From positions 1-6,378 of the forward strand of contig JAPYWL010000060.1 of assembly GCA_028276365.1 (NCBI GenBank): a DNA stretch of 6,378 nucleotides, given 5' to 3'. The DNA comes from Deltaproteobacteria bacterium (lineage in GTDB: Bacteria; DRYD01). Below the pieces are notes generated by a model that had not been told where the DNA came from, searched no databases, and saw only the letters and a list, made by a program, of their open reading frames with translations. Made by a program: the position numbers and the translations under genes. This document shows, one piece after another, positions 249-6,378 of the stretch (the stretch's first letter is position 1; the number at the start of each line of letters is the position of its first letter).

Positions 249-290
249 TTTTATCTCCTCCTTTTTTGTTACTTATCACTATAATAAAAA

Positions 291-319
291 ATAACAGATG
301 CTAAATTAAAATAAAACAA
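291..319 (-). promoter_or_regulatory. Weak sigma-70-like promoter candidate for the exported-protein gene
   Basis: On the minus strand TTGTTT (319-314) is followed after 17 bases by TGTTAT (296-291), about 43 bases before the ATG at 248. The hexamers match the consensus at three and four of six positions. The spacing is ideal, but A+T-rich DNA yields such matches often. If real, the promoter lies directly downstream of the palindrome at 323-345, and its transcript would lack the anti-Shine-Dalgarno arm at 380-393, escaping that control. Confidence 0.2.
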
Positions 320-320
320 A

Positions 321-347
321 CCTAAATTAAGATAAAACCGATTTAGG
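321..347 (-). terminator. Weak hairpin with U-rich tail: possible terminator or attenuator
   Basis: CCTAAAT (321-327) and ATTTAGG (341-347) form a perfect 7-base inverted repeat with a 13-base loop. Read on the minus strand, the second arm is followed by a T-rich run (TTTGTTTTATTTTAATTT), as in an intrinsic terminator. The stem has only two G-C pairs, so it would be weak on its own. It lies inside the loop of the larger 253-393 inverted repeat and between two genes on the same strand, so partial termination or attenuation before the outer-membrane gene is possible. Confidence 0.3.
323..345. promoter_or_regulatory. Possible Fur/Zur-family operator
   Basis: Read on the minus strand, this 23-base imperfect palindrome starts TAAATCG and ends AATTTA. 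The Bacillus Zur box as I remember it is a 23-base palindrome with TAAATCG and CGATTTA ends. Most outer positions agree and the middle does not. The site is upstream of a gene resembling zinc-regulated outer-membrane receptors, which is the main reason to list it. In sequence this A+T-rich a partial match is weak evidence. Confidence 0.2.
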
Positions 348-362
348 ATAAATTAAGATAAT

Positions 363-728
363 CTAAGATAAATTAAGATAAAAAGGAGGAGATCTAATAT
401 TAATATGTGATAATATAATACTTAAAACTAATTTACTTTCTAACTTAAAAAAACAATTAATAAAATCTAAATTTATAGAGATTCTATTTTTTAAATCAAC
501 ATTATTAGATTTTGAGATGTTATAATTTGATAATAATAAACATATTGAACAATTTTCATTTGATAAATTATTAGCATTATGTTTATGAAAATAATAAGAA
601 GGGTTTAGATTAAAGAAAAATAAAAATAAAGCTAATAAAAAAAATAGATTAAATTTAGTAGCTAAAAAATTTATTCCCCTTACATAAAAATAATTATGGA
701 ATTTAAGGAATAACTTAAAAGATCTCAT
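363..728 (-). CDS. Small membrane-anchored protein with HxH and CxxC (DUF2946-like pattern)
   Basis: This 121-residue protein has a basic N-terminus, one hydrophobic helix at about 27-40, then HKH (48-50) and NCSIC (Cys60, Cys63), with a further Cys92. A second hydrophobic stretch (about 100-108) leads into a short R-S-P-P tail (112-115). The order helix, His-x-His, Cys-x2-Cys, Arg-x-Pro-Pro recalls small DUF2946-type proteins often found beside metal-related outer-membrane receptors. Metal binding by the His/Cys cluster is inference. The start is the ATG at 728; only a poor AGAG lies upstream of it, 25 bases after the HD-domain gene ends, so translation may be weak or coupled. The in-frame AAGGGG further in has no usable start codon after it. 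The last codons contain one arm of the inverted repeat that can pair with the next gene's RBS. The product is probably real, but the family assignment is tentative. Confidence 0.62.
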   Translation of the reverse strand: MRSFKLFLKFHNYFYVRGINFLATKFNLFFLLALFLFFFNLNPSYYFHKHNANNLSNENCSICLLLSNYNISKSNNVDLKNRISINLDFINCFFKLESKLVLSIILSHINIRSPPFYLNLS

Positions 729-4162: not shown

Positions 4163-6378
4163 TTAATCCAAATAGATTATTTTTAATATTTTTCCAGTTT
4201 TAGGGCTTTTAATAAATTCTTTAACAAAGTTTATATTAATTTTAATTAAATTAGTTTCAATTCCTTCTCTTAATTGCCAATTAACGTTTTTTAAATTAGT
4301 TAAATATAGCTCTTTAATTTCATTTAATTTAGTTTCATTTAAATTAAAATAATCCTTTAATTTAAGAGAAACTTCTAAGTAATATTCTTTTCTAGAGATT
4401 CTTAGTTGAACAAAAGGTTCTAAATAATCAATTAGCTTTAAAGCATTAATAAAATCTTGATAATAGAAATCATAACTAGCTAATCTAATCCAATCATCAA
4501 ATCTCCCAAGTAATTCAATAATATAGGAACTTCTTAAACATTTACATTCATTACTTACCCATTTACCTAAATCTCCAGTTTTATATCTAATAACAGGCAT
4601 TAAAAACCGGTCTAAATTAGTTACAACGATCTCACCAGGTCTGTTATCAGGAAATTTTATTATTTCATTAGTTTCAGGATCTACAATCTCTACAAATTGA
4701 TAATTAGTAAGGATATGATACTGATTTTTTTCAAGATATTTACATTGATAAGCAATAGGTCCAGCATCCACAGAAGCGTATCCTGCTGACCTTATTAACC
4801 TAGTTTTTAAAACCTTTTTTAAATACTCTCTTTGATTATCATATAACACTTCTCCTCCATAAAAAATTTTCTCTATGGAAATATCTAAATTATTCTTTTC
4901 AATATATTTAGCTATTTCAAGTATCTGAGTAGGAATCCCTAAGATCACATTAGGCTTTAAAACAGATAAATACTCCACAATTAATTCAATACTGGTATTT
5001 CCTGAAACAGGTAAAATAATACAACCCAAAGCCTCTAAAGCTTTATTAACCGCAATAAAAGAAGTCCATAAATTCCCCGACATAAATAAATTAGCAACTA
5101 CATCATTTTTAGTTATTCCAGCTAAAAAATAAATCTGAGATAAATAATAAGTAATCTTTTCAAACTCATCAAATGAATATGCTATATACTTATGTTTTCC
5201 AGTAGTCCCCCCTGTAGAAAATATATAACATTTTTCATAAGTAGTTAATATATCTTTAGAACCAGTTAAAGAATGATTATAGATATCGTCTCTTGTAATT
5301 AAAGGTAAATTATAAAATATATCAAATAAATTACTTTCATTGATTTGATCAATATTTTTTATATTAAATTTTTCTAATACTTTAGAATATTTTTGTTTAT
5401 AAAAATGAGAGTTATTGTAAGCGTGTTTTAGTAAAAATATTAGCTTATTAGTTATATAAAAGGGTTTTAATTTAGATAAATCTTCTTCTAAGAATACATC
5501 AAAATTAGATTTGTTTTTTTCAATAGTAACTAATTTAGAGAACCTTTTAAAAATATAATCCCCTTCATAAGGAGCACCTATATAACTATGAGCTATCAAT
5601 CCAATATTAGTAAATCTTGTTATATTAATAGTAGCTAATTTTTCAGTATATTCATATAATTTTTCGTTAGTAGTTAATATTGAACAGCTTTGTAAAATAT
5701 CTCGATTTTTTTCTAATTTTGATGTTAAAATATCAATATTCTCTATATTTTTAACATAAATAAATCTGTTAAGGGGAGAAATAAAAAAATATTCATCATC
5801 AGATAAATCCAAAACTACTCTATCATAATAAATAGCCTTATTTAAAACTTCTTTTGATAATGCTAATTCCTTTGATATAAATTGTTCAACATATTCATCA
5901 AAAGATAATTCATATTGAGGTATCTCATTTAGCATTAAATTTAAATGATGAGATAATTTATTAGCAAAGTATTTAAGAAACTCAATATCAGTTTTTCCGA
6001 TAATATATATAACTTGAGGAGAAGCGCAAGACCTTTGTTCCCACAAACTTATATCATATGCTAAATTCTCACATATAAAATCTATATTATAATTTAAAAA
6101 TATTTCAGTATCTATAATAGAAATACTATACTTAGGTCCAAATATAACTATATGTTTATTAGGTTCAATATTTTCTAAGAAGTATTTAGTAGAATCTCTA
6201 CCACCCCAAACTACTATCCCATCTATATACTCATTTAACAAATCTATTAGTTTTTTAGATTTATAATCAAAATTAACAATAGCAAATAAAGAAGCTAATT
6301 GTCTATCTATCTCTAAAAAACTCTTAGCAAACAGTAACCCAAAAGTAGTACCTACTTTTGATGAAGTCTTTATTATAT
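4163..6378 (-). CDS. LuxC-type acyl-CoA reductase fused to a PaaK/LuxE-type adenylate-forming domain (5' part outside the window)
   Basis: The frame is open from the right edge to TAA at 4163, giving 737 visible residues (numbered here from the edge). The TTG at 6241 lies inside the first domain and is not the start. Residues 1 to about 300 are the C-terminal part of a LuxC fatty acyl reductase: VVWGG (55-59), FGPKYS (79-84) and WEQRSCASPQ (112-121) with catalytic Cys117. By comparison with LuxC, roughly 150-200 residues are missing. From about 305 a PaaK-like domain follows: LKHAYNNSHFYKQKY, P-loop STGGTTGK (387-394), YGGE (506-509), AGYASVDAG (531-539), Cys611/Cys613, RYKTGDLG (597-604), GRFDDWI (624-630) and the C-terminal lysine motif SPKTGK (724-729). 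The expected chemistry is ATP-dependent activation of a carboxylic acid, transfer to a thiol, then NAD(P)H reduction to an aldehyde, as LuxE plus LuxC do together. The substrate is unknown and no luciferase is in view. Confidence 0.88.
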   Translation of the reverse strand, partial: IIKTSSKVGTTFGLLFAKSFLEIDRQLASLFAIVNFDYKSKKLIDLLNEYIDGIVVWGGRDSTKYFLENIEPNKHIVIFGPKYSISIIDTEIFLNYNIDFICENLAYDISLWEQRSCASPQVIYIIGKTDIEFLKYFANKLSHHLNLMLNEIPQYELSFDEYVEQFISKELALSKEVLNKAIYYDRVVLDLSDDEYFFISPLNRFIYVKNIENIDILTSKLEKNRDILQSCSILTTNEKLYEYTEKLATINITRFTNIGLIAHSYIGAPYEGDYIFKRFSKLVTIEKNKSNFDVFLEEDLSKLKPFYITNKLIFLLKHAYNNSHFYKQKYSKVLEKFNIKNIDQINESNLFDIFYNLPLITRDDIYNHSLTGSKDILTTYEKCYIFSTGGTTGKHKYIAYSFDEFEKITYYLSQIYFLAGITKNDVVANLFMSGNLWTSFIAVNKALEALGCIILPVSGNTSIELIVEYLSVLKPNVILGIPTQILEIAKYIEKNNLDISIEKIFYGGEVLYDNQREYLKKVLKTRLIRSAGYASVDAGPIAYQCKYLEKNQYHILTNYQFVEIVDPETNEIIKFPDNRPGEIVVTNLDRFLMPVIRYKTGDLGKWVSNECKCLRSSYIIELLGRFDDWIRLASYDFYYQDFINALKLIDYLEPFVQLRISRKEYYLEVSLKLKDYFNLNETKLNEIKELYLTNLKNVNWQLREGIETNLIKININFVKEFIKSPKTGKILKIIYLD

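Follow-up and report, generated by a model that had tools for sequence, protein, structure and literature searches.

The window examined here, a stretch of 6,378 nucleotides (nt) from a Deltaproteobacteria bacterium (assembly GCA_028276365.1, contig JAPYWL010000060.1), carries on its minus strand, in order, a gene for an HD-domain protein (754-1440), a 121-codon open reading frame (ORF; 363-728), a gap of 114 nt and the start of a gene for an exported-type protein (3-248). The last of these is a 5' part cut by the contig end and codes for a porin-like outer-membrane (OM) protein, with 45-50% identity over its first part to the OM proteins of two other genomes of our sample, G001 and G005. Our subject is the 121-amino-acid (aa) upstream ORF (uORF), hereafter the leader, and the pairing of its 3' end with the ribosome-binding site (RBS) of the OM gene. 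Its translation, read by eye, contains a hydrophobic segment, FNLFFLLALFLFFFNL (606-653), a putative export or membrane signal; a putative metal-binding motif, HKH...CSIC (residues 48-63; 540-587); and the C-terminal sequence RSPPFYLNLS. Within the latter, R112-S113-P114-P115 (384-395; P114 at 387-389, P115 at 384-386) constitutes an arrest-type motif near the C terminus, with 6 residues after the Pro-Pro pair.

The RBS of the OM gene, AAAAAGGAGGAGAT (266-253, minus strand), ends 4 nt short of the ATG at 248 and provides one pairing arm, AAAAAGGAGGAGAU (253-266), with the Shine-Dalgarno (SD) core AGGAGG at 257-262. The other, anti-SD arm, AUCUCCUCCUUUUU (380-393, minus strand), is coding sequence rather than free sequence: it comprises the last base of R112, the codons S113-P114-P115-F116 and the first base of Y117. 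The original prediction had claimed an exact 14-base pairing across this gene boundary with 113 bases between the arms, and the complementarity is indeed 14 of 14 with a 113-nt spacer. The minus-strand RNA 400-240, whose folding it had called for, folds at -34.8 kcal/mol (z -3.74), with 0 of 200 shuffles equally good. In predicted folds with contexts from 161 to 661 nt, the 14-base-pair (bp) helix has a probability of 0.96-0.98, and the SD is buried in every context folded, with an unpaired probability of 0.00 in the free RNA. The 114-nt intergenic part of the loop (249-362, minus strand) contains the A/T-rich repeat ATCTTAATTTA and two internal hairpins. About four copies of this repeat (minus strand) lie within 267-379 between the arms and could tune the folding of the loop or bind a protein; we found no evidence for the earlier suggestion that the intervening repeats bind something.

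The 14-bp perfect complement at the RBS is real and above chance. Across 248 kb of the same genome, 74 genes have an SD-like motif, and no perfect upstream complement covering one of these exceeds 10 nt; the 10-nt case is apparently the RBS of a divergent gene, and a wrong-orientation (parallel-strand) control gave a longest match of 7 nt. The view that the match is hard to attribute to chance thus stands for its 14-nt length, but not fully for the GGAGGAG core on which it had leaned, which is partly set by the protein because the arm encodes S-P-P-F and such codons are common in this genome (CCT 0.60, TCT 0.38, TTT 0.90 in its codon usage). By arithmetic, the peptide R-S-P-P-F-Y written with the genome's own codon usage gives this exact 14-mer in about 9% of cases, and the excess over chance is in the A/T-rich flanks that extend the match to 14 nt, together with a strong SD. 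These figures lend something to a rival explanation, namely that an A/T-rich genome writes Pro-Pro as CCTCCT, which complements any strong AGGAGG RBS as a coincidence, with no regulation by pairing. Further, synonymous recodings of the window arm still pair at 0.87; therefore the window's own codon choice contributes little. The match, however, passes the core on both sides and exceeds the own-genome maximum, and the same pairing preference is seen in other loci, as described below.

No Pfam or NCBIfam family was found for the leader protein or for the truncated OM protein. We built a profile, with the window left out, from 49 small proteins that precede this OM gene in other loci. The window ORF reaches 26.2 bits with it, against at most 14.9 for 500 shuffles that keep the RSPP tail, and this test bears on the rest of the protein because the selection of loci had already used the motif. 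The spacing from CSIC to RSPP is 48 residues in the window and 42-49, mostly 43-45, in its relatives, and R[ASG]PP does not occur in 379 sampled ORFs of at least 100 aa from its own genome (128,209 aa). Equivalent leaders before the same OM gene elsewhere match the DUF2946 model PF11162 (in genome G055 with 2.4e-6, over the cut-off, and in G163 with 8.9e-4, below the cut-off). Because that model is matched by these leaders but not by the window leader, we name the latter CruR/CutF-like and not a DUF2946 member. Judged by its sequence, it is one of the small leader ORFs of the H..CxxC..RxPP type, a class that is widespread, and, by analogy with CruR and CutF, it is probably a metal-sensing protein.

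A search for the OM family over 386 genomes gave matches in 73, from which 72 distinct loci were extracted. In 50 of the 72, the window included, the gene directly upstream is a same-strand short ORF, His-rich/CxxC, whose last residues include an RxPP-like motif; start codons and SDs were assigned to these 50 loci by an automatic procedure, which may have erred in a few pairs. The leader-OM arrangement is seen in many lineages, across many bacterial phyla. For example, in G020, from another phylum, a 97-aa ORF ending in ERSPPIN lies 54 nt before the OM gene, and a Sulfurovum mangrovi plasmid (L198, 2306-5612) has a row of a leader ending in HAPP (codons CAT GCC CCT CCC), the OM protein, a zinc ABC binding protein and a permease. 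The plasmids searched also gave a Vibrio homologue without a leader. At the loci L089/L090, two RGPP leaders flank one OM gene, which suggests a second controlled gene beside it. The window's phylum is represented by 7 genomes in this sample, and two other sampled phyla gave 5 and 3, too few for replication.

Codon choice at the motif offers a measure of selection for pairing across these loci. The first Pro codon of RxPP is CCT in 27 of the 50 leaders, against 9.4 expected from locus usage, whereas CCT has a share of only 16% in the remaining Pro-Pro pairs of these loci, and the same share among the leaders' other Pro codons. Recoding tests were run on 45 non-redundant loci, excluding the window, with synonymous codons drawn by local usage. 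Once recoded, the RxPP segment pairs less well with the downstream SD (Stouffer Z -5.2), also when the Pro-Pro codons are held fixed (Z -3.2), and there is no pairing gain for control targets on either side of the SD or for a control window in the leader. In full folds, the pairing between the SD and the motif segment has a mean probability of 0.55 vs 0.25 when recoded (Wilcoxon p 3e-8). It is this shared preference, together with the length of the window's match, that leads us to consider coincidence very improbable. Long matches also occur in single loci, viz., CTCCGCCCT/AGGGCGGAG in L113, CCTCCGCGC/GCGCGGAGG in L075 and GCCTCCCG/CGGGAGGC in L111. A permutation of arms and SDs between genomes without matching of GC content gave a strong signal and was set aside as confounded by GC. 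Likewise rejected was the CCT bias as a general trait of RxPP motifs: the first Pro is CCT in 1 of 9 loci found with the DUF2946 model (a small sample, of which 2 are also in the 50-locus set), and the bias being unseen there weighs weakly against an explanation by tRNA.

To ask which ribosomal state would expose the RBS, a stalled ribosome was modelled as a blocked stretch at about 404-372, an assumed footprint in which P114 occupies the P site and P115 the A site. In contexts of up to 450 nt, blocking this footprint raises the predicted accessibility of the SD from 0.00 to 0.63-0.68, whereas a ribosome at the leader stop codon raises it to only 0.23. The original prediction that the RBS is hidden, and that a ribosome controls the upstream arm, is thus backed by the folding and by the 50-locus comparison, but its proposal that the RBS is exposed by a ribosome finishing the small gene gives way: the stop-codon state is not the best reading because the SD opens far less there than at RSPP, and because RSPP is arrest-type (PMC12992588, PMC10987492). 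Its switch is therefore partly supported and right in outline, with the effective state being a ribosome parked on RSPP rather than one finishing the gene. The same values bear on plain translational coupling, whereby any ribosome at the end of the small gene would melt the helix, with neither programmed arrest nor metal sensing. A helix overlapping the coding sequence would suffice for this, and in published mutants arrest by RSPP is weak (PMC7897499). However, besides the small opening of the SD by a terminating ribosome, coupling leaves aside the retention of CxxC and RxPP at conserved spacing in leaders across lineages and the absence of R[ASG]PP elsewhere in the sampled proteome, and we regard it as unlikely.

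Another alternative is transcription attenuation of the CruR type, in which a stall at RSPP would block Rho and allow RNA polymerase to proceed, the pairing with the SD being secondary or incidental. This is how CruR of Bordetella acts (PMC9426467); the window's phylum has Rho, of which G000 carries a partial copy at the end of a contig; and the intergenic region of 114 nt is long. Yet the region 253-393 shows no C-over-G bubble (C and G about 0.11 each), Rho control needs no exact 14-bp complement of the SD, and the codon choice of the relatives favors SD pairing; hence, attenuation appears to be a distinctly improbable account. No intrinsic terminator was found at the locus, and no promoter-like or terminator-like site lies wholly within the intergenic loop (249-362). 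Three other candidates were considered and rejected: an Rfam riboswitch or RNA family (just weak snoRNA matches at chance level), a dispersed intergenic repeat (the matches in the window's own genome are short, A/T-rich and scattered) and a divergent plus-strand RBS at 380-393 (the ATG at 405 runs into a stop and no ORF begins there).

The nature of the putatively controlled gene is indicated by its homologues. The OM family gives weak matches to BBP2 and Porin_O_P and is porin-like; no close solved structure was found for it, and a single-sequence structure prediction of the OM protein gave no usable model (predicted local distance difference test score, pLDDT, 34). Homologues of the OM gene precede genes for a ZnuA-type binding protein and a metal permease in G001, G002, G005 and G006, and a ZnuA-type metal ABC gene often comes after the OM gene in the 50 loci with a leader. 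In the window, the OM gene is directly 3' of the leader, and its metal-homeostasis context is taken from these homologues, its own downstream genes being beyond the contig end. From the ZnuA-type neighbors, zinc is our best guess for the sensed metal. In G002 (L049, 4086-5403), the OM gene is split by a stop into ORFs of 75 aa and 336 aa, which is a frameshift or an assembly error.

We consider it likely that the leader is a CruR/CutF-like metal-sensing arrest peptide that controls the next gene, coding for the porin-like OM protein of a metal-uptake operon, by means of a stall at RSPP. In CruR, toeprinting placed the Pro-Pro codons in the P and A sites in a RAPP-type arrest (PMC12992588), and ApdA and ApdP likewise stall the ribosome with Pro codons in these sites (PMC10951233). 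By analogy, the nascent leader would stall at R-S-P-P with the P114 codon in the P site and that of P115 in the A site. In this position, the ribosome would cover the anti-SD arm, which consists of the same codons, leaving the downstream RBS open and the OM gene on. Metal bound to the HxH/CxxC part of the nascent chain would presumably relieve the stall, as in CruR; the ribosome would finish and leave, the arm would re-form the 14-bp helix on the RBS, and the OM gene would be turned off. In the cell, plentiful metal would accordingly shut off uptake.

Several observations weigh against this proposal, in addition to the small contribution of the window's own codons noted above. First, with the whole leader in the fold (579-661 nt), blocking the RSPP footprint leaves the SD unpaired at only 0.17-0.18, because the freed SD re-pairs with other upstream leader sequence; trailing ribosomes in the cell might occupy those competing regions. 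Second, an exchange of SDs among GC-matched loci brings Z from -5.4 for the own partner to a swapped mean of -4.0, and 4 of 60 swaps are as extreme; this partial loss indicates that the signal is mostly that of a generic CCTCC-type anti-SD, and partner-specific matching beyond the CCTCC/GGAGG core is marginal. Third, ApdA/ApdP mutants with RSPP keep arrest in part only (PMC7897499, PMC12992588). Fourth, neither the window leader nor any genome of its phylum gives a match to PF11162. Finally, same-phylum members of the family have the OM gene without a leader, and G002 and G005 among them keep a good SD. The original prediction had named relatives that keep the RBS and lose the upstream arm as telling against the switch, and such relatives exist; however, what is missing in them is the whole small gene and not the arm alone, and therefore the leader module seems to have been gained or lost as a unit. 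In the sole congener, G001, no leader was found, the contig with its OM gene beginning 21 nt before the ATG; a UvrD-like helicase gene follows the HD gene in the leader's place (L055, 2198-3676), and therefore the leader-OM module lies elsewhere in this genome.

More generally, we lean towards the view that these are lineage-spanning metal-responsive leaders in which the stalling Pro-Pro codons double as the anti-SD of the next gene (CCU-CCN), such that one short sequence, under selection for its arrest peptide and for its role as an RNA switch arm alike, would control a porin-like OM protein and ZnuA-type uptake. If so, it would become clear how the following gene can be switched by an arrest peptide that has no separate intergenic hairpin, and the RAPP arrest family would be tied to an unnamed class of porin-like metal-uptake operons of many lineages. 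It would also supply a search rule for more cases, namely RxPP encoded by CCT-CCN with a downstream GGAGG.

Elsewhere in the window, a single minus-strand ORF (4163-6376) combines a LuxC acyl-CoA reductase domain with a following PaaK-like AMP-ligase domain, an unusual fusion with a possible role in fatty acyl reduction.

SecM and the RQH/RAPP arrest peptides (ApdA, ApdP and uDF_RQH) monitor protein export. None of SecM, ApdA, ApdP and uDF_RQH is known to have an HxH/CxxC metal motif. A ribosome stalled on SecM or uDF_RQH breaks up the stem-loop that otherwise masks the SD of the next gene (PMC10987492). In the window, the downstream SD is predicted to lie in a stem, which the modelled stalled ribosome opens in contexts of up to 450 nt but only slightly with the whole leader in the fold. 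No SD-masking hairpin was predicted for ApcA/ApdA/ApdP (PMC7897499). The leader's RSPP fits the R-[A/G/S/D]-P-P pattern that RAPP-type arrest peptides carry close to the end of a short exported leader; RSPP is among the RQH query motifs and is arrest-type (PMC10987492), and arrest peptides have been catalogued upstream of TonB, copper and thioredoxin genes (PMC12992588). The passages returned by a limited search of the open-access literature make no mention of ZnuA-type or porin targets, or of arrest codons serving as an anti-SD.

Other close parallels are the copper-linked leaders CruR and CutF. Like the window leader, CruR of Bordetella pertussis is a small exported-type leader with CxxC and a C-terminal RxPP (spacing 45 vs 48 here), located upstream of an OM metal-uptake gene with a long intergenic region (PMC9426467); the CxxC-RxPP spacing of DUF2946 departs from 45 by no more than one or two residues (PMC9426467). 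However, CruR uses Rho-dependent termination ahead of a TonB-dependent copper transporter, with no SD sequestration reported (PMC9426467), whereas the window has a porin-like barrel of a ZnuA-type operon downstream, with the arrest codons pairing with its SD. CutF of Rhodobacter capsulatus shares with the window a metal-binding leader with a C-terminal Pro motif, and an mRNA stem-loop in which an anti-SD masks the next gene's SD until a stalling-like process opens it (PMC9973294). It differs in its CxxxC motif, its PEPEGPPPRL tail, the placement of its stem-loop in a 40-bp intergenic region and the response of its system, in which copper raises oxidase expression (PMC9973294). Thus, in contrast to CutF, the anti-SD of the window is formed by the arrest codons themselves, and the loop that it closes encloses the intergenic region.
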